The notes under the pieces are model-generated. The model did not search any database, had not been told where the DNA came from, and worked only from the letters and a program-made list of their open reading frames with translations. A stretch of DNA of 64,000 nucleotides from Salipaludibacillus neizhouensis (GTDB lineage Bacteria; Bacillota; Bacilli; Bacillales; Salisediminibacteriaceae): contig NZ_KZ614146.1 of the NCBI RefSeq assembly GCF_002886185.1, positions 1,968,930 through 2,032,929 of the forward strand, read 5' to 3'. Both the position numbers and the translations under genes were made by a program. Below, piece after piece: positions 18,839 to 63,960 of this stretch (within the stretch, counting starts at the first letter, position 1; each line of letters begins with the position of its first letter).

Positions 18839-18935
18839 GGGGCCGGTTGTGTAACTGGTGTTTGCCGAAGTCTTCAAAACTTTATGGGAGGCGCGTGCCG
18901 TCTCCGGTGGGTTCGATTCCCACACGGTCCCGCCA
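18839..18935 (+). tRNA. selC: tRNA-Sec (anticodon TCA)
   Basis: A 97-base tRNA with the anticodon loop CTTCAAA (TCA), the extra-long variable arm typical of tRNA-Sec (GGGAGGCGCGTGCCGTCTCC), T arm GTGGG-TTCGATT-CCCAC and encoded CCA. The acceptor stem pairs GGGGCCG with CGGTCCC, with one G-U; the eighth pair is a mismatch. It lies beside selB. The 3' part from the anticodon stem onward is duplicated 12.3 kb downstream, marking island integration that left this copy whole. Confidence 0.95.
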
Positions 18936-41330: not shown

Positions 41331-41837
41331 ATGCCTGAAGAAGGCATGCTCGAGGAATGGGAGCTGAAAATCCATCAGTCCTCTCACGCACGTTATTTCG
41401 AGGACTTCTTAAAATATGTAGAATACAATCGATCGATGGTGGAAATCATTCGAGCTAAAGTTGTCGAAACAGCTCAACAATATATCGCCGAAGCTTATGA
41501 AGAAGACAGTGAAGAGCGGGCACAGGAAAAAGAATCAATCGAAGCATGGTCTAATACACCTGAACGCCAGCTACAGGAAAAATGGACAACAGAGCAGGTC
41601 GTAGAGGCTTCTTCCCCGATCATTGATCACCAGCCGGAGGTCGAGTTAAAGCAGAAGTTGGATCATATGGAAGTAAAGGCTCTCTTATCTGATTTCAGTG
41701 AGAACCTGCACATCGCTAAGGTAAACGGGAAATATGTGATATTGATTGAAGGAGAAGCATTTTCTTTTGATAAAAGTGCCTCGCTAGTGGAGTTTTTTCC
41801 TACAAAACCTTCAGCCCCAAAGCTACCCATAAACTAA
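41331..41837 (+). CDS. Acidic hypothetical protein beside an ATP-grasp gene
   Basis: 168 residues from MPEEGMLEEWELKIHQSSHA (a TTG at 41295 would add 12). The middle is strongly acidic: AEAYEEDSEERAQEKESIEA. That segment matches EENSEER-VQEEESIDA-like residues of the small peptide gene at 42748. The C-terminus, NLHIAKVNGKYVILIEGEAF, looks like a folded beta module. It converges with the ATP-grasp gene and their ends overlap by four bases. No known family. The ribosome binding site is weak, so the start is uncertain. Confidence 0.5.
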   Translation: MPEEGMLEEWELKIHQSSHARYFEDFLKYVEYNRSMVEIIRAKVVETAQQYIAEAYEEDSEERAQEKESIEAWSNTPERQLQEKWTTEQVVEASSPIIDHQPEVELKQKLDHMEVKALLSDFSENLHIAKVNGKYVILIEGEAFSFDKSASLVEFFPTKPSAPKLPIN

Positions 41838-42610
41838 ATTATTTTTTTATTTTCTCGACGGATATTCTTAATTCTCCGATACATTGTTTTATCATTTAAT
41901 TTATAGAAACTCTTTATACCGGGACATAAATTCCCCTCGATAATCCATACGTGACCCTCTCTATCTATCCCAACATCCAAACCCATGATTGTTTGTTTTT
42001 TCCAATAGGAAGCAAGTTCTTTTGTTGCAATCAATACGACTCGTTCTATTTCCTTCATTATTTCTTTTCTATTCCTTGCTATATCATCATTTGCTTTTCT
42101 TAAAGCAGAAGTTACTGGAAGGATTATTCCCCCACCTGATCTATCGTTGGTTACCATAAAACCTTTTCCAGCCACCTTTGATACCATCCCTGTTACATGC
42201 CACTCACTCGACTCCTTTCGCTTTTGTACAATCACTCGGATGTCAAAGGGTTTGTTTTCATAGGTTGCAAGGTCAATGTATCGTTGAACAATATACGTTC
42301 GTTGAAGAATATGTTTTCGTTTGCTAATAAACTTTTCAATATAAGCTAGCGTTTCTTTCTCACTGGTGTAAATATTTTTTTTATTTTTTAAATGAATTTC
42401 ATATCGGGATTGACCTAAACGAGAGACCTTTAAAATATTCCTTCCTCTTCTTCCTATTACTGGCTTCAAGACGACTTTATTGCATTTTCTTAAATAGCTC
42501 CACAGTATTTCAGGTGTGAATTTAGCCGTTTCCGGTAAATGGGGTTGTACCTTTGTATTTTTAATCATAATCTTGTGCTTTTTCCATTTGCTTCCTCCAG
42601 TGTATCTCAA
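41834..42610 (-). CDS. YheC/YheD-type ATP-grasp protein, short class
   Basis: 258 residues from a TTG that follows AAGGAGG by seven bases. ATP-grasp features: KVVLKPVIGRRGRNI (ATP-binding Lys and Gly loop), RTYIVQRYIDL, KPFDIRVIVQK (R-x-D-x-R), MGLDVGIDREGHVWIIEGNL (metal-binding D and E-x-N). The N-terminal extension of B. subtilis YheC/YheD is missing. It lies 11 kb from the main array of eight such genes, inside the yneF element. Substrate unknown; YheC/YheD are spore-coat associated in B. subtilis. Confidence 0.85.
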   Translation of the reverse strand: MRYTGGSKWKKHKIMIKNTKVQPHLPETAKFTPEILWSYLRKCNKVVLKPVIGRRGRNILKVSRLGQSRYEIHLKNKKNIYTSEKETLAYIEKFISKRKHILQRTYIVQRYIDLATYENKPFDIRVIVQKRKESSEWHVTGMVSKVAGKGFMVTNDRSGGGIILPVTSALRKANDDIARNRKEIMKEIERVVLIATKELASYWKKQTIMGLDVGIDREGHVWIIEGNLCPGIKSFYKLNDKTMYRRIKNIRRENKKII

Positions 42611-53474: not shown

Positions 53475-54203
53475 ATGACGAAAATAAAAGGTAGGAATAA
53501 GTGGAAAATGTATCAAGCTATGAGAAAAAATAAAAAACTTGCCCCTTACCTTGTCTACACAAAGCAATGGAACAAGAAAAACTTTAATGGAATGTTATCT
53601 AAATACAATGCTATTGTTGTGAAGCCTAATAACGGTTTAAAAGCTAGAAGTATTTATTTTATTTCGAAAAAGAACAGTGGATTTAAAGTGCAAATATACG
53701 AGCGAAAATATTTTTTTTCAACCAGTGAAAATGTTTATGATTTTATGAAAAAGAGAACACAACGTGTTTCATATATTATCCAAAATCACATTGATATGGA
53801 AAAAATAAACGACAGGCCATTTGATATCAGAGTAATCATTCAAAGGAGATCAATAGCTTATCCATGGACTGTCACTGCGTATAAAGTTAGGGTTGCCGGG
53901 GCGGGAAAAATGGTCACTAACGCTAGTAAAGGTGGGAGAATTTTAACTTTTAAAGATGCGATGCAAAAATGTGATATTCCGAACCAAGTACAAGGTCACT
54001 TATTAGAGCGCCTTAAATACGTTTCTATCATAGCATCATTAACCCTAAGTAAGTATTACCCTTACAAGCGTCTTTTCGGTATCGATATAGGAATTAAAAA
54101 AGATGGTTCTCTTCATATATTTGAAATCAATCGCCAACCGCTATTAAGAGGTTTTTCGAAATACCAACAAAGAAAAATTAGAAGATTTAAACATCCAAAG
54201 TAA
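53475..54203 (+). CDS. YheC/YheD-type ATP-grasp protein, short class (1)
   Basis: 242 residues, starting MTKIKGRNKWKMYQAMRKNK after GGGGGATGAAG. ATP-grasp residues: AIVVKPNNGLKARSIYF, YIIQNHIDM, RPFDIRVIIQR and LFGIDIGIKKDGSLHIFEIN. In place of the usual Gly-Gln-Gly in the Gly loop it has Leu-Lys-Ala-Arg, unlike its paralogues, so ATP handling may differ. Only the ATP-grasp core is present. It is followed after 35 bases by a second short-class gene. Presumed to form amide bonds on an unknown spore-related substrate. Confidence 0.85.
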   Translation: MTKIKGRNKWKMYQAMRKNKKLAPYLVYTKQWNKKNFNGMLSKYNAIVVKPNNGLKARSIYFISKKNSGFKVQIYERKYFFSTSENVYDFMKKRTQRVSYIIQNHIDMEKINDRPFDIRVIIQRRSIAYPWTVTAYKVRVAGAGKMVTNASKGGRILTFKDAMQKCDIPNQVQGHLLERLKYVSIIASLTLSKYYPYKRLFGIDIGIKKDGSLHIFEINRQPLLRGFSKYQQRKIRRFKHPK

Positions 54204-54238
54204 TGAACAATTAAAAATCCTTCTGGAGGTGTATTGCA

Positions 54239-54988
54239 GTGACAGTGAGACTAACAGGTAGAAACAAATATAAAATGTATTTAGCATTAAAGAAAAATAA
54301 AAACCTGCTACGACATCTTCCTGATACTAAGATGTGGAGTAAAGTTAATTTTTATAATATGTTAGAAAAATATAAGTCCATCGTAGTAAAACCAAACAAT
54401 GGACAGCAAGGTCAAAGAATATATTTTGTGAAAGCAATTAAATCAAGATACGAACTATATATTAATAAAAAACGAAAGGTATTTAAGAAAAAGAAAGACC
54501 TTTATAACTACATTAGAATTGCTACACTTAAAAGAAGATTTATTATTCAACGAGAAGTGGATCTTGCTAAAATTGAAGGAAAACGTTTTGATTTTAGAAT
54601 TATCGTTCAAAGGAAAACGAGAATGCTTCCTTGGGTTGTCAATGGAGTCTTAGTAAGGAAAGCAGGAAAAGGGTATAAAGTAACCAATAGGCGCCGACAT
54701 GGAATAGTCTTGTCGCTAGAAGATGCACTAAAGAGCATGAATGTAACAAACGAAAGGAAAGAATTTAAGGTAAAAGAAATTCAAAAGATTTCCCACATGG
54801 CAGCAGAAACATTAGGACGCTCTTTTCCTAATCAAAGGATCTTTGGCGTAGACATAGGCATGAAAGAAGACGGTTCTCTTTATATTTTTGAATTGAACCG
54901 CTGGCCTCTGCTACATGGGTTCCGATTACTAAAAGACAAAAGTTATATTAGAAAAATTATGACTTACAAATCGAGAAGGAAGGGGTGA
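54239..54988 (+). CDS. YheC/YheD-type ATP-grasp protein, short class (2)
   Basis: 249 residues from a GTG seven bases after GGAGGTG. Starts MTVRLTGRNKYKMYLALKKN. ATP-grasp residues: SIVVKPNNGQQGQRIYFV, FIIQREVDLAK, KRFDFRIIVQR, IFGVDIGMKEDGSLYIFELN. It is very close to the short gene at 59687 (for example KYKS-VVVKPNNG-QGQ-IYFV and the last 60 residues), clearly a duplicate in inverse orientation. Co-transcribed with the gene before it. Confidence 0.88.
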   Translation: MTVRLTGRNKYKMYLALKKNKNLLRHLPDTKMWSKVNFYNMLEKYKSIVVKPNNGQQGQRIYFVKAIKSRYELYINKKRKVFKKKKDLYNYIRIATLKRRFIIQREVDLAKIEGKRFDFRIIVQRKTRMLPWVVNGVLVRKAGKGYKVTNRRRHGIVLSLEDALKSMNVTNERKEFKVKEIQKISHMAAETLGRSFPNQRIFGVDIGMKEDGSLYIFELNRWPLLHGFRLLKDKSYIRKIMTYKSRRKG

Positions 54989-55155
54989 TTAGCCCCTTGA
55001 CCACACACCCTTAAGAATTAAGTCTTTTAACTTTTAAATAATTAATTAATCGAATCTTACCGACAGATCAGTATGGAACATAAATTCCTTTCCAGAAAAA
55101 CTGTTTCAGAAATTAACTTCATTAAGTTTGTCACTAGTTCAATGTTTCTTAAACA

Positions 55156-55225
55156 GTTTTTTCTTCTTAAAGTACCAAACCTCATGTTCAATGAAAAATG
55201 CTTACTGTCGATTCGACTGCTGTTA
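55156..55225 (-). pseudogene. Relic of the 361-codon ATP-grasp class
   Basis: The minus strand reads SRIDSKH and, one frame away, FIEHEVWYFKKKKL. This equals the last residues of the 58572 protein (GRIDSKHHRVPFEHVVWYYK). Only the 3' end is left, next to the 454-codon gene, showing that this copy of the cluster once contained that class too. Confidence 0.7.
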
Positions 55226-55284
55226 AGTTAGCTTAGCTAAGCATGCAAATGGTTTATCTACATCAGTTACTTGGCGTGGTTTAA

Positions 55285-56649
55285 TTACGTTGCCTTCACG
55301 AACCAAAATCCATGTGTTGATACAGAATTCCCCAGTTTTCTTGGTCTTTTGTATTTTATTTTTTTCTTCTGTATTAATTTATTCCTTTTAACGTTCTTTC
55401 GCAACTCCCATTCGCTCTGACTGTTATGAAGGGCTTCTTTCACATGCTGGTTGCTCTCTTCACTTACGATAGCTTCCTCGGGCTTGTTGCTTTCTTCACT
55501 CACAACAGCTTCCACAGATTGGTTACTTTCTCCTTCCCATCCTGTTTCTTCAAGTTTATCTTTAGCATATAGGAGTATATTGACCATGGTTTGTTTTACA
55601 GTATTTTCACCATAAGCTTTTAATAGTGACACTTTTGCACTCTGGGAATTACATTCAATAAACTTGATTTCTAGATCTTTTGTCAAGCCAAAATCAATTC
55701 CAATCTCCCCAAATTCCCCATACTTAAATTCAGTCTCAGTATAGATTTTATATAAAAAGGTTTCGATCCTTTGTTGCATTCTTAATTTTTCTTTGGGAGA
55801 AAGGTTTATCCAATCAAATAATTCACCCACTGGGAAGGCATGGGAATGAATAGTAATCGGAGAGTTTTCTTGGCTCACTCTTGCACTAATACCACTAATT
55901 TCAATTCCCTTTTTTTTGTTTCTTTGTAATTCGGCTCGTAAATCTATCCGTCTATTATTCACTTCCAATAAGTCTATAGCTTCTTGAATCATAAACTTTT
56001 TCCCTTTGTAAAATTTGTCTATGAAAGGTATCATTTCATCTAATTTTTCATAACTCTTAGAATGAATTTCGTCTTGGATATAATCGAAATGCTTACATAG
56101 ATATTTATCGCCGGGAAGATGTTCTACCCTCACCACATTTTGCCCTTTTCTACCTGTGACACCCTTTAGGTAGATTGTTTGATGCTTTTTCATCATATCA
56201 AATAAATCTTCAGGACCTTCATATAAAATTGTATCTAACAAAAAAGACTTTAATGGTTTAAGGGTACCGAAATAGTTATAAATATCCCAATTTCCCAACG
56301 ATGAAGGATTTAAGCACACCGTTTTCTTTTCATTACATTGTTCGATAAAGGTAAGATATTTGTTCCTATATTTTTTAGATGCTCCACCACGACGATAAAG
56401 AACATCAGGATAGGGAAAAGTGTCTTTTTCCCATAAATTATTTGTAAAATCAAAATAGTACCCTGTAATTAATTGTTTTTGGATATCTACTGTATTGATG
56501 GAGAAAAAAAACATATTAAAATTAACATATTCATTGGCTTCCGACAATTTTTCCAACCGATAATGAGGATTATTATTAGTAATGCCTTTCCAGGCTCTAT
56601 TTGACACCAACACCCCGAGATTACCAGTTAACTTTTTCTGTTCAGTCAA
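55285..56649 (-). CDS. YheC/YheD-type ATP-grasp protein, class B with repeat tail
   Basis: 454 residues from a TTG that follows GAAAGGGTG. An N-terminal domain (about 150 residues, NLGVLVSNRAWKGITNNNPH) is followed by the ATP-grasp core: IYLKGVTGRKGQNVVRVE, FMIQEAIDLLEVNNRRIDLR, GEIGIDFGLTKDLEIKFIEC. After residue 370 comes a tail with three EESN-type repeats (SNQSVEAVVSEESNKPEEAI, then VSEESNQHVKEA) and a strongly basic end. The close paralogue at 60477 lacks this tail. Presumed peptide-type ligase; substrate unknown. Confidence 0.87.
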   Translation of the reverse strand: MTEQKKLTGNLGVLVSNRAWKGITNNNPHYRLEKLSEANEYVNFNMFFFSINTVDIQKQLITGYYFDFTNNLWEKDTFPYPDVLYRRGGASKKYRNKYLTFIEQCNEKKTVCLNPSSLGNWDIYNYFGTLKPLKSFLLDTILYEGPEDLFDMMKKHQTIYLKGVTGRKGQNVVRVEHLPGDKYLCKHFDYIQDEIHSKSYEKLDEMIPFIDKFYKGKKFMIQEAIDLLEVNNRRIDLRAELQRNKKKGIEISGISARVSQENSPITIHSHAFPVGELFDWINLSPKEKLRMQQRIETFLYKIYTETEFKYGEFGEIGIDFGLTKDLEIKFIECNSQSAKVSLLKAYGENTVKQTMVNILLYAKDKLEETGWEGESNQSVEAVVSEESNKPEEAIVSEESNQHVKEALHNSQSEWELRKNVKRNKLIQKKKIKYKRPRKLGNSVSTHGFWFVKAT

Positions 56650-57043
56650 GTTTCTTCACCCTTTCTTCTGTAACTTGCTCATGCATAGCATATTAATAAA
56701 TAGCAAAAAGGTGAGTAAATCACGGCTTATAAGACTTAGAGTCACACCCAAATTCATTATCAATAAAAAAGCCTTCTTATATTACTCAGAAAAAAGTCAA
56801 ATCTATACCCTCCTTGATAGCTGCTTTGATGGTTCTTGATAAAAGACACGTCCCATACGATAAAGAAATAGTAAACACAGACCAAAATCTACCTGGATAG
56901 TTATTTATTCTTCTGCCATAGCATACTCTTCAATGAAGTGTTGTTAATACTCCTTCTTATAACAGAAGCCGAGAATGGTAAAAAGGTCCTTTATCAGCTC
57001 ATTATATTGTAATACCCAACGTTAATTGGAAGGAGGCTTACCC

Positions 57044-58372
57044 TTGTATATCGAATGGATAACAACAAATGAGGTCAACGAAATTTATTTGCCAGAGGAT
57101 CTTAAAAGAGAAATAATCACTTCGTCAAAAACAATTACTTTTCATTTCGGTTCATGGAATAAGGAATTGTATTTACATTTTATAAAAGAAATACCTAATG
57201 ACACCATTGGCCTTTCTGAAAACCTAAGAAAGGATGTTTTCATTCCCGAGGAACTGATCTATGATATAAATATGACAGAAAAAAGTCTTAGTCTAGGTCC
57301 AGTAGTTCTATACTTAGTATCTAACAGACTAATAAAACGTTTGGATAAATTAAAAGAGCGTATAGAAAATTTTGTCCCCTTAAATGGTTTAATTATAATT
57401 AGCAGTAGTTTAGGTATTAACACGGAAAAAGAAACAATCGAAGGGTATTATTTTCAACCTAAAACAGAAACAATCAACTCAAAATTGATGAAAGAAACCT
57501 TTTCATACCCAGGCGCCATATTTAAAAGAGCTCTCCTTTCACCGAGCATAGATACACATTTATATGAAAAGATGGGTGGACGAATATTTAATTCTAAATT
57601 TTTTAATAAATGGGAAATGTGGCAGTGGTTAACTTCTAACGATTTTTTAAAAAATAATCTTCCCCACACAAAAGAATTAAAAAGCTTAGAAGAGGTTAAT
57701 GACATGTTGGACGTATATCATTCGATTTATTTAAAGCCTAAAAAAGGATCTAATGGGAAAGGAATTATTCAGATTGAAAAAAATGATTTTTTATTTCATA
57801 TAACTAATGATAAATGTATTTCAACAAGGGGTGAAAGCTTAGAGAACCATCCTTTAATTAAAAGTGTTTTCGAAAGGGAAAATCAGTATATAATTCAGCA
57901 AGGAATTCCTGTCAAGCATCATTCAAGACATGTTGATTTCCGTATTTACATGCAAAAGGATGAGACAATGCGGTGGAAGTGTTCTGGGTTCATTGGTAGA
58001 TTTGCTATACCGGGAAGCATAACTACCAATTTACAAAATATTGATGATATACTTCCAGGCCAAGAGGCTTTGAGGCTAATCTTTGAATTAGAAAAAGAAG
58101 AAGTAAGGTTAGTTGAGCAAAAAATTATTACTATTTGCACAGAAGCGTGCCAACTACTTGACCAACATGGTTGTTACGGGGACATTGCTATTGATTGTAT
58201 AGTAGATAATGATTTACATGTCTGGATATTAGAAATGAACAAAAGGTATGGATATAGAAGTTTTTATTTCCTTGAAGATCGTAAATTATTCAGTAAAATA
58301 ATACGTAACCCATTTCTTTATGCTAGTGCCCTAGCTGGTTTTAGTGGCGCAAGGGAACGACAAAAATTGTAA
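57044..58372 (+). CDS. YheC/YheD-type ATP-grasp protein, class C (1)
   Basis: 442 residues. I start at the TTG 57044 because GGAGG is seven bases upstream and the residues (MYIEWITTNEVNEIYLPEDL) align with the paralogue at 62240. The N-terminal domain (FHFGSWNKELYLHF, then LSENLRKDVFIPEELIYDIN) resembles that of B. subtilis YheC/YheD. ATP-grasp residues: IYLKPKKGSNGKGIIQIE, YIIQQGIPVKHHSRHVDFRI, GDIAIDCIVDNDLHVWILEM. This is the canonical full-length class. A GC-rich terminator follows. Confidence 0.88.
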   Translation: MYIEWITTNEVNEIYLPEDLKREIITSSKTITFHFGSWNKELYLHFIKEIPNDTIGLSENLRKDVFIPEELIYDINMTEKSLSLGPVVLYLVSNRLIKRLDKLKERIENFVPLNGLIIISSSLGINTEKETIEGYYFQPKTETINSKLMKETFSYPGAIFKRALLSPSIDTHLYEKMGGRIFNSKFFNKWEMWQWLTSNDFLKNNLPHTKELKSLEEVNDMLDVYHSIYLKPKKGSNGKGIIQIEKNDFLFHITNDKCISTRGESLENHPLIKSVFERENQYIIQQGIPVKHHSRHVDFRIYMQKDETMRWKCSGFIGRFAIPGSITTNLQNIDDILPGQEALRLIFELEKEEVRLVEQKIITICTEACQLLDQHGCYGDIAIDCIVDNDLHVWILEMNKRYGYRSFYFLEDRKLFSKIIRNPFLYASALAGFSGARERQKL

Positions 58373-58480
58373 AAATAAGAGAATAAAGGCAAGGTCATTG
58401 TGATAAGCTCTTAGTCTCATCAACTATTCATACTAAAACCTAGTCTACTATCGATCTTTAAAGTTGGTTCATGGCAAATA

Positions 58481-58514
58481 ACCCCCATTCCACTTATTAT
58501 GGTGATTTGGGGGT
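58481..58514 (+). terminator. Terminator after the class C gene
   Basis: ACCCCCA pairs with TGGGGGT, with an inner CCAC/GGTG pair; TATTTTA follows. Confidence 0.7.
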
Positions 58515-58571
58515 ATTTTAGGATTGAATTTCAGGACGAACTCCTATTGGTATTCTCCAAGCTCTGTTCTG

Positions 58572-59618
58572 TTACAACTTTTTTCTTTTGTAGTACCAAA
58601 CAACATGTTCAAAAGGGACCCGGTGATGCTTGCTGTCAATTCTGCCTCTGTAGGGTTTAAAATTCGCTTCCAGAAGCCAAATTTTCTCTTGTTTGTCTAT
58701 TGCGATATCCAGACCTAAATCAATTACTTGTGGGTATTTTAATTCCAGCGCTTTAGCTATTTTTATACATGATCGTTTGATTTCTTCCTTCTTTTTTTGA
58801 TGAATTAAAGGTGTTAATCTGAATTTGAGGAGTCCGCCCTGATCACGGTTCGTAACATTCAAACACTTATCAGCCACTCTGGCGTACATACCGATTACCT
58901 TCCATGCGCCTGACTTAGTTTTTTGCGGCGATACTCTAAAATCAAACTTTTTCCCCTTATATTCTTTGCTTTCAACTCCTTGTTGGACGATAAACCGTTT
59001 TGGAGATGAAAATGTAGAAGAATAATAGGTGTACAGCTCATTTTTTGGTATCTTTTTGATTGTTTCTTTTGTCTTCAAAATGTGTGTCATAGTATATCCA
59101 GTGTTTGTTTTTTCTAGGACATAAATATTGTTTCCCTTGCAGCTTCGTTTTGGTTTAATGTAGATTTTATTAAACCGGTCTATCATCCCAACCATTTTTA
59201 AAAATGATAAGGTTCCTGTCTCCGGTAATAATGAAGTAATTTCATCGATCGATGCCAGATATTCATGAATTTTATATTTGCTTCTGTCTTTATTTTTTAT
59301 GACATTAAAGAATATGATGTCATGATTTTTAGTAAGGTATTCAATTTTCCGGATCAATCCCTCTCCTTTTAGAAATGATGTGCTCCGATATAAGTTCACT
59401 TTCGGAATGGCGGTTTCTCTCCTTAGTAGCTCATCATTTTCATGTGAGTATACCATTGCTTTTACGGTCTTGTTTATTTGAGAAATACTCTTCATGCTGT
59501 AAAAACATATATCCACTTTATTTTTTTGGGCATGGTCTTTATAAAATTGCACGATAGAATCCGGTTTTTTAGAAATTGTATTTTTAAATATTCTAGATGG
59601 CAAAATAATACCAATCAT
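58572..59618 (-). CDS. YheC/YheD-type ATP-grasp protein, class D
   Basis: 348 residues from the ATG (MIGIILPSRIFKNTISKKPD) that follows AAAGGAG by eight bases; an earlier start would add 13 residues without support. ATP-grasp residues: IYIKPKRSCKGNNIYVLE, FIVQQGVESKEYKGKKFDFR, DLGLDIAIDKQEKIWLLEAN. The N-terminal domain differs from classes B and C. A relic of a second copy is at 55156. First of two tightly packed minus-strand genes with 59687. Confidence 0.87.
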   Translation of the reverse strand: MIGIILPSRIFKNTISKKPDSIVQFYKDHAQKNKVDICFYSMKSISQINKTVKAMVYSHENDELLRRETAIPKVNLYRSTSFLKGEGLIRKIEYLTKNHDIIFFNVIKNKDRSKYKIHEYLASIDEITSLLPETGTLSFLKMVGMIDRFNKIYIKPKRSCKGNNIYVLEKTNTGYTMTHILKTKETIKKIPKNELYTYYSSTFSSPKRFIVQQGVESKEYKGKKFDFRVSPQKTKSGAWKVIGMYARVADKCLNVTNRDQGGLLKFRLTPLIHQKKKEEIKRSCIKIAKALELKYPQVIDLGLDIAIDKQEKIWLLEANFKPYRGRIDSKHHRVPFEHVVWYYKRKKL

Positions 59619-59686
59619 AACAATTGCTCCTTTTTTTGATGGTGTCGACAAAGACATAGGATCATAAACGGTGCAAATTACTTGAA

Positions 59687-60430
59687 TTATTTTTTACGTT
59701 TTAAAGCCATAATTCGATTGATCTGCGTTTTATCTTCTAGGCTTCGAAATCCTCCTAATAGCGGCCAGCGATTTAGTTCAAAAATATAAAGAGAACCGTT
59801 CTGATTCATCCCAATATCAACGCCAAAGATCGTTTGATTAGGAAAAGAGCATCCTAATGTTTCTGCTGCCACTAGCGAAATCTTCTTAACTAGTTTCACC
59901 TTGGAGGCTTTCGTTTCGTCTGTTACATTCATGCTCTTTAGTGCATCTTCTAGCGATAAAACTATTCCATGGTGTCGTCGATTTGTTACCTTGTAACCTT
60001 TTCCTCCTTTTCTAGCAAGAATACCAGTTACCTCCCAGGGAAGTTCATTCGTTTCCCTTTGAACGATAATTCTAAAGTCAAAACGCCTTTCGCCTATTTT
60101 GGCAAGATTCACTTCTTGTTGAATAATAAACTCCCTCTTGATTGCTGCTTTTTCTATATATTTAAAAACATCTAGATGATTTTCAAATACCTTCCGTTTT
60201 TTATTGATATAAACGGCGTAGTTTAATTCAGTTTTGTCCACAAAGTATATACTTTGCCCCTGTTTTCCGTTATTTGGTTTAACGACAACTGATTTATACT
60301 TACTTAACATCCTTAAAAAGTTTTCATAGCTCCACATCATTGTATCAGGAAGATATCGTTGCAACTGTCTATTTTTCTTCATTACCAAGTACATTTCATA
60401 TTTATTTCTACCTCTTAATAGCACTGCCAT
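59687..60430 (-). CDS. YheC/YheD-type ATP-grasp protein, short class (3)
   Basis: 247 residues, starting MAVLLRGRNKYEMYLVMKKN after GGGGTG. ATP-grasp residues: SVVVKPNNGKQGQSIYFV, FIIQQEVNLAK, RRFDFRIIVQR, IFGVDIGMNQNGSLYIFELN. It is a duplicate of 54239-54988, and the two lie in opposite orientation. It sits between class D and class B genes on one strand, with short gaps, suggesting one transcript. Confidence 0.88.
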   Translation of the reverse strand: MAVLLRGRNKYEMYLVMKKNRQLQRYLPDTMMWSYENFLRMLSKYKSVVVKPNNGKQGQSIYFVDKTELNYAVYINKKRKVFENHLDVFKYIEKAAIKREFIIQQEVNLAKIGERRFDFRIIVQRETNELPWEVTGILARKGGKGYKVTNRRHHGIVLSLEDALKSMNVTDETKASKVKLVKKISLVAAETLGCSFPNQTIFGVDIGMNQNGSLYIFELNRWPLLGGFRSLEDKTQINRIMALKRKK

Positions 60431-60476
60431 TTCGCTTCACCCCTTTCTTCTCATCCCCCTCCAATTCACCTTCAAA

Positions 60477-61649
60477 TTAAATATTTACAACACCATCTTC
60501 TTTTCTCACTAAAGTGAGTTTTCCCTTCCTTTCTACCCCTGCTTTTTCTGCAAGTAGATATTTTGCATATAAGACTATATTTAACATCGCTTTATTTAAC
60601 GTATTCTTACCGTGAGCTTTCAATAGTGAAACTTTTGCACTCTGGGAATTACATTCAATAAACTTGATTTGAAAGTCTTTTGTCAGGGCAAAATCTATTC
60701 CAATTTCTACAAATTGCCCATATTTATCTTCGGTCTTTTTATAAACCGTGTATAAAAAGTTTTCTATCTGCTGCTTCATTTTAAATTTTTCTTCTGAAGA
60801 AAGCTTTTTCAAATCAAACAACTCATCCAATGGAAAGGCATTGGCATGAATCGTGATCGGAGAATCCTTTTTGCTCTTCCTTGCACTAACACCGCTAATC
60901 TCTATTTCCCCTATTTTGTTTCTTTGTAATTCGGCTCGTAAATCTACCCGTCTATGATTCACTTCTAACAGGTCGATAGCTTCTTGAACCATAAATTTTT
61001 TACCTTTGTAAAATTTATCAATGAAAGGTACTATTTGATCTAGTTTTTTATACCGTAATAAGTGAACTTTTCGTTTGGTATGATCGTAATATTTACATTG
61101 ATATTGATTGTCAGGAAGACGTTCTACACGCACCACATTTTGTCCTTTTCTACCTGTGACACCCTTTAAGTAGATGGTTTTATGCTTTTTCATCATGTAA
61201 AATAAATCTTCTGGATCCTCATATAAAATTGTTTGTAACAAGTACGGTTTTAAAGGTTTAACACTACTAAAATAGTTGTAAATATCCCAATTTCCTAACG
61301 AAGAAGGGTTTAAGAATAACGTTTTCTTTTTGTTGCACTGACGGACAAAGGTACGATAACTTTTTCTTTCTTTTTTACACACTCCGCCACGTCGGTAAAT
61401 AGTAGCTGGATAGGAAAAAATAGCAGTTTTCCATGAATTATCTGTGAAATCAAAATAATACCCTTTAATCAATTTTTTTTTCTTATCAACTGTATTGACG
61501 GTGAAAAAAAACAAATTTAAATTAGCATTTGCATTGGCTTTCGCCAATTGTTTTAATCGGTAGTGAGGTTTGTTTTTACACAAGGCTCTCCAAGCTCTAT
61601 TTGATACCAAGACTCCGAGATGACCAGTTAAATATTTTTGTACGTTCAA
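60477..61649 (-). CDS. YheC/YheD-type ATP-grasp protein, class B (2)
   Basis: 390 residues from a TTG after AAAGGGTG. It is the near relative of 55285-56649, sharing LSNLGVLVSNRAW-like N-terminus (GHLGVLVSNRAWRALCKNKP) and the ATP-grasp core: IYLKGVTGRKGQNVVRVE, FMVQEAIDLLEVNHRRVDLR, VEIGIDFALTKDFQIKFIEC. It lacks the repeat tail. Long gap (590 bases) to the upstream class C gene contains repeats. Confidence 0.88.
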   Translation of the reverse strand: MNVQKYLTGHLGVLVSNRAWRALCKNKPHYRLKQLAKANANANLNLFFFTVNTVDKKKKLIKGYYFDFTDNSWKTAIFSYPATIYRRGGVCKKERKSYRTFVRQCNKKKTLFLNPSSLGNWDIYNYFSSVKPLKPYLLQTILYEDPEDLFYMMKKHKTIYLKGVTGRKGQNVVRVERLPDNQYQCKYYDHTKRKVHLLRYKKLDQIVPFIDKFYKGKKFMVQEAIDLLEVNHRRVDLRAELQRNKIGEIEISGVSARKSKKDSPITIHANAFPLDELFDLKKLSSEEKFKMKQQIENFLYTVYKKTEDKYGQFVEIGIDFALTKDFQIKFIECNSQSAKVSLLKAHGKNTLNKAMLNIVLYAKYLLAEKAGVERKGKLTLVRKEDGVVNI

Positions 61650-61896
61650 TATTCTTCACCCTTTCTTCTGTAACATGCTTATCCATGTTCATTCATAGCA
61701 TATTAAGAAATTGTCTGTAAGTAACGGCTATGTGACATGGTGTTCCACCCAAATATTTTGTTAATATAAACTTTCGAATAACAGAGCATACTGTTTCATG
61801 TCCCTTCATCTATCAAATGAAAAGTTAGTAAATATCGGATGAAGATCGTAGGTCCACGTAAAAACATCCTTAAAAATCGAAGCTGACTCAAAAGAA

Positions 61897-61985
61897 GGGC
61901 ACTGAAAAAGTAAAAATCGACTTTTTCAGTGCCCTTAGTGATTTCCCCGAGGAGGCTAAGGCATTGCCCGCGGCAAGCGAATAAA
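61897..61985. repeat. Copy of the citB-terminator hairpin and GC-rich repeat
   Basis: GGGCACTGAAAAAGT (61897-61911) pairs perfectly with ACTTTTTCAGTGCCC (61920-61934), as at 9316-9348. It is followed by ccgaggaggctaaggcattg and cccgcggcaagcg, as at 7765-7795. Both repeats occur together here. Confidence 0.75.
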
Positions 61986-62040
61986 TTTTCAAAATCGATC
62001 CGATAACACATTGTATGTATGTCTTCTATTTAAACAAGAA

Positions 62041-62081
62041 AACAGCCTGCTATTTTCAATTTGAGAAAATAACAGGCTGTT
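62041..62081 (-). terminator. Terminator after the class C (2) gene
   Basis: AACAGCCTG and TATTTTC pair with GAAAATA and CAGGCTGTT; TTTTC follows on the minus strand. It lies 160 bases after the gene's stop. Confidence 0.75.
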
Positions 62082-62239
62082 CAATTTAACTATCGGACTT
62101 TTTCACTGGCCTCCTCAAAAGTCAGCTTCTTTTTGAATAAAGTATGGCAATGGTTTCGTTCGCTCCGCGCTCGCTATGAGAAAACCGCTCATTGCGAGCT
62201 TTAAAATGGAGCAATGTTGCTCATTGCTTTTACGGTGTC

Positions 62240-63637
62240 TCAAAAGGTTTTTTCGACTTTTTCAGACATCCTCGAACGAGAAATGTGAGAACCTTTACTT
62301 TTGCCTTTTTTTCTTCTTCGCTTCTTCCTCTTTGGAGGGAACCCAGCTATACTCATGGCATACAGAAAGGGTGTACTCTTAACTTTAGGTGCTAACTTTG
62401 GGTCTTCTACTGGATATACTTGCCTAAGATTCATCTCTAGGATCCAAACATGCAGGTTTTTGTCTACGACAAAATCGATGGCAATATCTCCGTAACTACC
62501 TTTCTTGTCGATCGTTTTACAAGCACGAGTACAGATATCAATTATTTGTTTTTCTAGGGAGGAAGCACCTATCCTCCCTAGTTTGAAAATTCGTCGAAAG
62601 GCTTTACGACCTGTTAGCCAATAATCCAAGTTTCGTATATTAGTTATAATGCTCCCAGGATTAGAAATCCGGGCGGTGATACCTGAGGATTTCCAATGTT
62701 TGAATTTATTCTTTTGCATGTAGATACGAAAATCTATATTCCTTGATTGATGCTTAGTCGGCACGCCCTGTTGAACAAGATATGGTTTTGATCCGTTGAT
62801 CCGCTTTTGAAGAATAGAGTGGTCCTCTAAATTTGTAACACTCGTTTTATTCTTTTTATCATTTGTGATGTGGATAATAGATCTATCACGCTCTAATTGC
62901 ATAATTCCTCTACCTTCTGAACCTTTGATTGGTTTTAAATAAACGGAAGAATAAGTTCCAAGCATTTCCTTAACTTGTTCAATCGAGTTTACCTTTTTTG
63001 TGTAAGGAATGTATTTTTTTAAAGTTGAATCTGGGGACAACCATTCCCACATTTCCCACTTATTGAAAAAGTATGAATTAAATATGCTACCCTTGGTCAA
63101 CTTGTAGAGATGCTCATTTGCTGTTTTGGCTAGCGGTACTCTTTTATAAACAGCACCAGGAGAGGAAAAGGTTGCTTTTTTCCACTTTGAGTCCCCATTC
63201 GGCATTTGTGGTTGGAAATAGTACCCTTCAATCTTCTGTTTTTTGGTATTGATTCCCTCTTCAGCACAAATACAAATCATTCCTCTTACTTGAACATATT
63301 CTTCGATCCGTTTTTGTAATTTATTTAGTCTTTTGCTCAGTCGCTCATTCGTGTTGGCTGCAATCCATAATATCATTGGTCCTACTTGCAATGTTTTTTT
63401 TGTTATTCTGAACTCATAAGAAAGATCATCAGGAATGAAAAGTTCATTTTTAAGATTTTCAGATAGACCAATAGTGTCATCTGAAAGGTCTTTATCAAAT
63501 CGGACAGTCATCTTTCTACTCCAAGAACCAAAATGAAAATCAATCATCCCTGAGGAAATTTTTCCCTCACTTCGAAAGCTCACTGGCAAATGGATATCCC
63601 CATTTTTTTTTATACGTATATACTTTATTTTAAGCAT
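62240..63637 (-). CDS. YheC/YheD-type ATP-grasp protein, class C (2)
   Basis: 465 residues from an ATG after GGGAGGCG. The N-terminal domain (FHFGSWSRKMTVRF, then LSENLKNELFIPDDLSYEFR) equals that of 57044-58372. ATP-grasp residues: VYLKPIKGSEGRGIMQLE, YLVQQGVPTKHQSRNIDFRI, GDIAIDFVVDKNLHVWILEM. The C-terminus ends in a very basic tail (PPKRKKRRRKKGKSKG), absent from the other copy; such tails may bind spore-coat acidic proteins or nucleic acid. Confidence 0.88.
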   Translation of the reverse strand: MLKIKYIRIKKNGDIHLPVSFRSEGKISSGMIDFHFGSWSRKMTVRFDKDLSDDTIGLSENLKNELFIPDDLSYEFRITKKTLQVGPMILWIAANTNERLSKRLNKLQKRIEEYVQVRGMICICAEEGINTKKQKIEGYYFQPQMPNGDSKWKKATFSSPGAVYKRVPLAKTANEHLYKLTKGSIFNSYFFNKWEMWEWLSPDSTLKKYIPYTKKVNSIEQVKEMLGTYSSVYLKPIKGSEGRGIMQLERDRSIIHITNDKKNKTSVTNLEDHSILQKRINGSKPYLVQQGVPTKHQSRNIDFRIYMQKNKFKHWKSSGITARISNPGSIITNIRNLDYWLTGRKAFRRIFKLGRIGASSLEKQIIDICTRACKTIDKKGSYGDIAIDFVVDKNLHVWILEMNLRQVYPVEDPKLAPKVKSTPFLYAMSIAGFPPKRKKRRRKKGKSKGSHISRSRMSEKVEKTF

Positions 63638-63960
63638 CTAGGCGCCTCCCACCTTCTATTTTTTAATATTATATGAACATACAGAAAGATCGGAGTGGAC
63701 GAAATAAAACTAAAGTATTTAATTGAGTAATTAAAATCAGAAGTTAACAAATTATATTAGCAGTAGCATATATGTGTTTAGAAGATCTAACTCGGTGGGT
63801 AACAAGATAACCCTTTACGTAACTTCCCCTTAGATGCAGCGAAAACGCACATATTTTATTAATAGCCTAATAATCAATTCTACTAGTCAAAACACCAAGC
63901 ACAACATTTAATAATACATAGGATAACGTACAAGAATAATTCTTAAGGGAGGAATAAAAA
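63638..63960. other. Gene-free stretch at the right edge
   Basis: AT-rich, no gene or repeat that I can support; it should hold divergent promoters for the class C gene and the last gene. Confidence 0.3.

Follow-up and report, generated by a model that had tools for sequence, protein, structure and literature searches.

An array of eight neighboring ATP-grasp genes in Salipaludibacillus neizhouensis probably encodes amide ligases that are made during sporulation. The array occupies positions 53475 to 63637 of a 64,000-nucleotide stretch of contig NZ_KZ614146.1 (the window, to which all coordinates refer unless a locus is named), and its genes belong to the YheCD family (PF14398, ATPgrasp_YheCD). 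The reading that we favor, with reasonable but not high confidence, is that these sporulation-expressed enzymes use ATP to tail or branch the carboxylates of acidic proteins or peptides on the spore surface. The observed basis is family membership, conserved gene order and orthology, purifying selection, -10 elements, co-occurrence with a spore gene, and the linkage and fusion of YheCD and Mur ligase genes; the activity, expression, substrate, product, and location are what we infer from it. The eight genes were as follows; D, B, S, and C are labels coined in this analysis for four YheCD architectures.

62240 to 63637, minus strand: D, first gene of the conserved D-B-S-C set, 465 aa; a beta-rich N-terminal domain followed by the ATP-grasp domain; PF14398 E value of 1.6e-60
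60477 to 61649, minus strand: B, 390 aa; ATP loop with KG, not KP; PF14398 E value of 1e-55
59687 to 60430, minus strand: S, 247 aa; ATP-grasp domain alone, without an N-terminal domain; PF14398 E value of 4.2e-51
58572 to 59657, minus strand: C, last gene of the D-B-S-C set, 361 aa; PF14398 E value of 9.7e-50
57026 to 58372, plus strand: D', of the D type but not a copy of D, 448 aa; PF14398 E value of 3.8e-63
55285 to 56649, minus strand: B', own-lineage duplicate of B, 454 aa; extended repetitive tail
54239 to 54988, plus strand: S', own-lineage duplicate of S, 249 aa
53475 to 54203, plus strand: S'', divergent S-type gene, 242 aa; ATP loop without its second glycine; PF14398 E value of 1.5e-48

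All eight array proteins matched PF14398 (E values of 8.8e-48 to 3.8e-63), and their scores of 163 to 214 bits were in every case above the curated cut-off of 26.8 bits. Together, the eight open reading frames (ORFs) made up 84.5% of the array interval. These results bore out an earlier note on this DNA, which had described eight neighboring YheCD-family ORFs at the same coordinates.

The order D-B-S-C, on the minus strand here, was common to six genomes: that of the window, G002, G003, G019, G005 (G, C, and L numbers are our handles for genomes, contigs, and loci), and Bacillus sp. FJAT-44742. Each D-B-S-C gene of FJAT-44742 best matched the window gene of its own type (59 to 71% identity), and the set was followed there by a D'-like gene that was 54% identical to D' vs 45% to D. 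In G007, all four types were present but rearranged. At an E value of ≤1e-60, the C type was found in 6 of 40 relatives, namely the window's genome, G002, G003, G005, G007, and G019. We also built a quick maximum-likelihood tree, with Shimodaira-Hasegawa-like approximate likelihood ratio test (SH-aLRT) support, from 113 domains of 120 ORFs of YheCD clusters; incomplete domains were left out. The four architectures named in the earlier note proved right, as each type formed its own clade: D with 6 rows (support of 99), B with 8 (100), S with 7 (99), and C with 6 (100). B paired with B' (95) and S with S' (97), S'' was the sister of the S clade (92), and D' grouped with the D-types of G001, G004, G006, and G028 (93), not with D. 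As judged from these sequence comparisons, D-B-S-C is the only conserved unit of the array, and the other four genes are duplicates or genes of other origin. The earlier suggestion of several distinct ligases therefore stood in the form of four types, but a single eight-step pathway was dropped because only D-B-S-C was conserved.

The same note had used Bacillus subtilis, with only a few family members, as its baseline. That is not a fair yardstick. We examined the highest-scoring YheCD locus in 12 genomes of ten other genera, which were chosen for having such a locus and do not amount to a census, and found four tandem YheCD genes in 11 of the loci and three in the remaining one. In a 160-row FastTree phylogeny, all 47 rows of this tandem set, together with four rows of G026, fell in one part of the tree that contained no row of the window's genus (support of 72). 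Across the eight genomes of the genus, PF14398 matches reached E values of 3e-61 to 6e-69 at best, scores below those of the tandem set. Because of the tree and the lower scores, the window's genus seems, on sequence evidence, to lack the usual tandem set and to have D-B-S-C or other YheCD genes instead, and D-B-S-C may have replaced it. G019 held both sets. Two further arrangements were seen among the relatives. A stretch of about 40 kb in G026 (contig C26, about 107843 to 146010, L032 to L034) contained many YheCD genes, several Mur ligase genes, a Pfam-confirmed CotZ gene, and sugar genes, and it exceeded the window's array in size. Single ORFs of 835 to 908 aa with two YheCD domains occurred in L045 (G016), L037 (G009), and L044 (G015).

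An alignment of 22 YheCD proteins (residue numbering after D) was used to examine catalytic residues. The ATP and metal residues T213, K235, Q289, D302, R304, D388, E401, and N403 were invariant in all 22 proteins. The motifs that the earlier note had ascribed to all eight array proteins held in part: ExN was present in 8/8, but R-x-D-x-R was present in only 4/8 and G-x-D-x-x-x-D in 1/8. B and B' had KG in the ATP loop and the remaining array proteins had KP; the loop was altered in S'' (KPNNGLKARS vs KPNNGKQGQS in S). The ratios of nonsynonymous to synonymous substitution rates (dN/dS) between G003 and G002 were 0.13 for D, 0.24 for B, 0.16 for S, and 0.27 for C, and those of two control genes were 0.15 and 0.03. 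Between duplicates, dN/dS was 0.35 for B/B' and 0.28 for S/S'. Judging by these ratios, D, B, S, C, B', and S' are under purifying selection.

These data bear on whether the array is simply a neutral local amplification undergoing decay, which we had considered as a candidate explanation, tested by tree and dN/dS, and did not favor. The duplicates B' and S' are of the kind that it predicts, and the earlier note had named as its signs only one or two members in close relatives with no sporulation expression, or loss of catalytic residues with no ATP turnover. PF14398 matches across the eight genomes of the genus numbered 17, 2, 12, 11, 2, 8, 2, and 11, so that three of the seven congeners had only two, but the other four had 8 to 12. 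Loss of catalytic residues was absent. Decay does happen near the array: immediately beyond the window are a degraded YheCD gene and a split Mur ligase gene, and a transposase-like gene is nearby. Set against this were the dN/dS values of 0.13 to 0.35 and the four separate types, whose order is kept in six genomes, and we regard neutral amplification as highly improbable.

The proposal that the proteins form amide bonds was supported by kinship with enzymes that add residues to the carboxylates of peptides and proteins, as seen in the sequence profile and in the fold of S. A profile of the 22 YheCD proteins, compared with solved structures, matched tubulin tyrosine ligase (TTL), TTLL7, and Pby1 with E values of 8e-6 to 2.5e-4. 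TTLL6 followed at 0.003 and weaker, and glutathione synthetase was not significant (0.09). The AlphaFold model of S (predicted local distance difference test [pLDDT] score of 90) matched the folds of Pby1, PurK, ArgX, Ddl, TTL, and RimK, with E values from 6.4e-9. For D (pLDDT score of 74.5), the fold matches were Ddl, PsnB, PruB, other ATP-grasp ligases of ribosomally synthesized and post-translationally modified peptides (RiPPs), and glutathione synthetase. The RiPP ligases among the D matches, and the acidic small proteins that adjoin some YheCD genes, would suit enzymes of a graspetide-like kind, which would join side chains inside coat peptides through omega-amide or ester bonds without adding residues. 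We consider this quite improbable. The D model was of moderate confidence and its template modeling (TM) scores were low (about 0.3 to 0.4 by query), the S model matched residue-adding ligases, no repeated core motif was recognized in the small proteins, and the YheCD-Mur fusions described next point to intermolecular ligation.

The link between YheCD and Mur ligases was first visible beside the array. The earlier note had counted eight genes in the array. That number held, but a ninth YheCD gene lay apart in the window and the array extended beyond the window end, which cuts the gene for a small protein:

41834 to 42610, minus strand: ninth YheCD gene of the window, away from the array, 258 aa
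63960 to 64000, plus strand: start of the gene for an 82-aa protein that lacks Lys and Arg and has 14 Asp plus Glu residues

The genome held a second copy of the ninth gene (95% identity) at another site, where a Mur ligase gene lay 290 bp away. In the whole genome (5.51 Mb), 17 PF14398 matches were found; two were pieces of one gene, and one had an internal stop. Downstream came the genes for the 82-aa protein and for a 508-aa YheCD protein with a C-terminal HHH_3 domain, then the degraded YheCD gene, and then genes for a 439-aa Mur ligase and a D-Ala-D-Ala ligase (Ddl). These were followed by the split gene of a second Mur ligase and by genes for an acylphosphatase and a further YheCD protein. 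Pfam found only the middle and C-terminal domains in the 439-aa Mur ligase, which had no N-terminal Mur (UDP-substrate) domain. Its score against the MurF profile TIGR01143 was 246.3 bits, below the cut-off of 288.6, with alignment starting at profile position 75, and its score against the CphA equivalog profile TIGR02068 was 56.7 bits, far below the cut-off of 850. The Ddl scored 534.7 bits against NF002525, above the cut-off of 457. The genome's other ddl gene (47% identical) lay directly before a 461-aa MurF-type frame. Mur ligase, Ddl, acylphosphatase, and YheCD genes also occurred together in G010 and G023. Elsewhere in the window's own genome (G000:C1:538718-539497), a Ddl-like stretch was found in a 716-aa frame (30% identity, E value of 9.6e-26).

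To follow this linkage, the 439-aa Mur ligase was used as a query against 397 genomes of the order at an E value of ≤1e-65. There were 29 matches in 23 of the genomes, three of them in the window's genome, and the surroundings of all 29 were inspected over 13 to 20 kb each. A YheCD domain was present in the region of 26 matches and in the same ORF in 16 cases, and where the distance of a linked Mur gene to YheCD was measured, it was ≤1.5 kb. By our own arithmetic, which stands in place of a formal null and assumes a few dozen YheCD genes at most in about 4 to 5 Mb, the share of such regions that contain a YheCD gene by chance should be well below one quarter. The fused ORFs had both orders, 14 YheCD-Mur and 2 Mur-YheCD (the order of three was deduced from coordinates). 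Four fusions were submitted to Pfam, which found both domains in each, and the fused Mur ligase retained its P-loop. Outside the 29 matches, a Mur ligase of G023 (72% identical) was also YheCD linked. The 23 fetched regions contained a LAL-type ATP-grasp gene in 19 cases and a CotZ-like gene in 9, with one of each confirmed by Pfam (L068). An Asp/Glu racemase gene lay directly upstream of both Mur-YheCD fusions (Pfam confirmed in L065), and similar genes were present in G010 and L077. A separate contig search gave 11 loci, and one Mycoplasmataceae match was dropped as spurious (25 residues).

Just past the last YheCD gene outside the window, about 0.5 kb away, a sugar cluster with Epimerase_2, NeuB, and DegT genes began. 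This cluster, the sugar genes adjoining the G026 array (named by reading, not by Pfam), and the fact that four of the eight array proteins reached the cut-off of the sugar-transfer-associated ATPgrasp_ST profile (32.0 to 32.6 vs 31.4 bits) would fit ligases that amidate sugar acids of a spore-surface polysaccharide, such as nonulosonic-acid carboxylates, and do not act on proteins. That substrate seems unlikely to us, given that the solved relatives found by sequence profile were TTL-type protein ligases and that no sugar-synthesis genes were seen in the 20 kb around D-B-S-C in G002, G003, G005, and G007, as judged from the first residues of the ORFs only. Beside the sugar genes past the window, a 518-aa protein with no Pfam match (L019:10055-11611) had at its end a series of tandem repeats, each about 15 residues long and rich in Lys and Arg.

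A link to sporulation, also proposed in the earlier note, was supported by co-occurrence with spoIVA, by sporulation-type -10 elements, and by CotZ genes that neighbored YheCD genes in genomes of other families. Among the 397 genomes, PF14398 was present in 282/382 with spoIVA and 5/15 without it (P = 0.0015, not corrected for kinship); the five exceptions had one match each, three of which were weak. Among the 40 relatives, the counts were 27/34 and 2/6 (P = 0.04). Upstream of D, one predicted element was also visible in an alignment of ortholog upstream regions:

63667 to 63675, minus strand: CATATAATA, sporulation-type -10 element starting 38 nt upstream of D (-38)

The corresponding consensus, CATANNNTR, was found 16 to 100 bp upstream of 42/122 YheCD leader genes vs 69/582 other genes. 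When one gene per 45%-identity group was counted, the numbers were 23/61 vs 47/481 (P = 1e-7), and TATAAT showed the opposite trend (3/61 vs 74/481). We tried six upstream patterns; three CATA forms were enriched before YheCD genes, and GATANNNTA and TATAAT were not. The pattern CTAANNNTA occurred before 6/122 YheCD leaders vs 14/582 others (P = 0.11). CATANNNTR was present before 6/24 Mur leader genes. We take CATANNNTR to resemble the -10 element of sigma-K and to be near that of sigma-E. When both promoter boxes of sigma-E and sigma-K were scanned for, two sigma-E-like sites emerged, one before S' and one before D'.

For B. subtilis, a spore-coat role of yheC and yheD is in print through expression, location, and SpoIVA dependence (PMC517825, PMC7911427). 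Both are sigma-E genes whose expression is raised by SpoIIID (PMC517825), a tie to sporulation that dates from 2004 at the latest, and the deposition of YheD, which forms circles and then a shell, depends on SpoIVA (PMC7911427). On pBM300 of Priestia megaterium QM B1551, a YheC/YheD gene was paired with a LAL-type ATP-grasp gene about 4.5 kb from a collagen-like gene, and the two kinds of gene were paired again on pBM600. The exosporium-less strains of one study were found to lack pBM500 and pBM600 (PMC4674009), although the YheCD gene need not be the cause. A plasmid search for the Mur ligase gave no match at 1e-50.

The B. subtilis data also raise the possibility that these are structural proteins with an ATP-grasp fold that mainly scaffold the coat. 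YheD surrounds the spore, interacts strongly with itself, and, as late as 2021, had no known function (PMC7911427), and the YheCD proteins of the window's genus are mostly basic. A scaffold would hardly account for catalytic residues invariant in 22/22 proteins or for the repeated fusions, in which the Mur ligase has its P-loop intact, and we give this explanation little chance.

The charge of the proteins has a second bearing. In the Salipaludibacillus loci, YheCD proteins had a median charge of +6.2 per 100 aa (n = 52) vs -2.1 (n = 148), and basic YheCD proteins would therefore fit acidic substrates. Two candidates, the 82-aa protein and the small protein ASI1, are only leads. Proteins of 79 to 82 aa without Lys or Arg were encoded at two loci, L018:12890-13138 and L023:10415-10654, each on the same strand as and upstream of related YheCD genes (508 and 531 aa), with the second pair on contig C2. 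ASI1, which has an acidic tail, adjoins D-B-S-C in congeners. The ASI small proteins, found beside D-B-S-C in four congeners, were rejected as substrates of the array itself; ASI2, the only one searched, had no match in the window's genome. In L025 to L028, three conserved genes flanked D-B-S-C, two of them for small proteins that share an 'SIALEE' stretch, and the three flank proteins tested from L025 gave no Pfam match.

Several results weigh against the reading of tailing or branching ligases of the spore surface. Small acidic ORFs were not significantly enriched near YheCD genes (14/50 vs 9/44, P = 0.27), D' was not basic (-4), and the pairing of the 82- and 79-aa proteins with YheCD was found in the window's genome only, with a weak G003 homolog that had no YheCD gene nearby. 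The fold of D rests on a model of moderate confidence with low TM scores. Spores can form without YheCD, because 100/382 spoIVA-positive genomes had no match, and the spoIVA association is uncorrected for kinship. CATANNNTR was chosen after it had been sighted in the ortholog-upstream alignment and is a consensus match only, and the two-box scan gave no site before D. Three of the 29 Mur matches had no YheCD gene in the region (one of these was fused to a LAL-type ATP-grasp domain, whose LAL_C2 score was under the Pfam cut-off), nor did a Mur ligase of G009 (60% identical) within its 16-kb region. In G002, G003, G005, G007, and G019, D-B-S-C occurred without a YheCD-linked Mur ligase, and each genome had at most one MurF-level match at an E value of ≤1e-40, which speaks against a necessary Mur step.

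If the favored reading is right, each YheCD protein would use ATP to make an acyl phosphate and would then join an amino group to it, in the manner of TTL, RimK, and ArgX. Four distinct ligases encoded together, D-B-S-C, would be the functional core, and B', S', S'', and D' would be added variants. We read YheCD as an acyl-phosphate ligase acting on peptide carboxylates because the YheCD-Mur fusions repeat, with members of other branches, the module pairing of the cyanophycin synthetase CphA1. A D-Ala-D-Ala-type branch would come, in the window's genome, from the second Ddl and the MurF-like ligase, which has no UDP-binding domain, so that YheCD and Mur-Ddl would follow a two-ligase logic akin to that of cyanophycin synthetase, with Mur as an optional branching partner. 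The array may tail coat peptides residue by residue, as the earlier note had suggested.

A bolder proposal, which is tentative and in our view rather doubtful, is that many spore formers of the order make a non-ribosomal polyamide on the spore surface. YheCD proteins would build the chain (D-B-S-C in the window), and MurF-like ligases, either free-standing or fused with YheCD in one order or the other, would attach the side groups, here D-Ala-D-Ala supplied by the second Ddl. In other lineages, the side group may be D-Glu or D-Asp, because both Mur-YheCD fusions are immediately preceded by an Asp/Glu racemase gene. For the window genes, the polymer model is not established, because five relatives have D-B-S-C but lack the Mur pair.

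If YheCD proteins are ligases that tail or branch acidic material of the coat, spores would have an enzyme system dedicated to coat modification, and each YheCD-Mur fusion would offer a single enzyme for substrate hunting. Were D-Ala-D-Ala part of a coat polymer, the group would occur in a new location, with possible effects on how spores adhere and on how they resist salt or alkali. The genera in which the D-B-S-C array would be expanded are salt and alkali loving. An enzymatic prediction for the YheCD family was reportedly made by Iyer et al. in 2009. The family and its spore link were already known, and the resolved D-B-S-C set and the YheCD-Mur fusions may be new. We found no account of either in the open-licence literature searched, judged mostly from listings. 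Elsewhere in the window, ARAGORN called a selenocysteine tRNA at 18839 to 18935, which may be spurious.

Among known systems, YheC and YheD of B. subtilis are the nearest, as they share the family PF14398 and the link to sporulation. D-B-S-C appears to be a different set, with the short S and the B types, and the FastTree phylogeny (support of 72) did not place the window genes as orthologs of the tandem YheCD set of other genera. RimK, MptN, and LysX/ArgX have the same fold, and YheCD proteins gave weak NCBIfam matches to MptN and RimK, but these reached only 14 to 30 bits vs cut-offs of 143 to 350 where matching, and YheCD has its own Pfam family. TTL and the TTLL polyglutamylases were the best solved relatives of the 22-protein profile (E value of 8e-6 and weaker), but they are eukaryotic, act on unrelated substrates, and are only remotely similar. 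The Mur-Ddl pair past the window mirrors the housekeeping ddl-murF pair, but its Mur ligase, unlike housekeeping MurF, lacks the N-terminal domain and is set among YheCD genes. In CphA1, one enzyme extends the backbone at an ATP-grasp site and attaches the side chain at a Mur site (PMC9427784). The YheCD-Mur fusions of relatives likewise join ATP-grasp and Mur modules in one polypeptide, which accounted for 16/29 Mur matches, whereas YheCD and Mur genes are separate in the window's genome. The fusions further differ from CphA1 in that their ATP-grasp module is YheCD, their modules occur in both orders, CotZ-like genes are present in 9/23 regions, and their Mur module is MurF-like, the fusion profile matching MurF structures in the PDB at 5.8e-44 and cyanophycin synthase at 1.9e-8.

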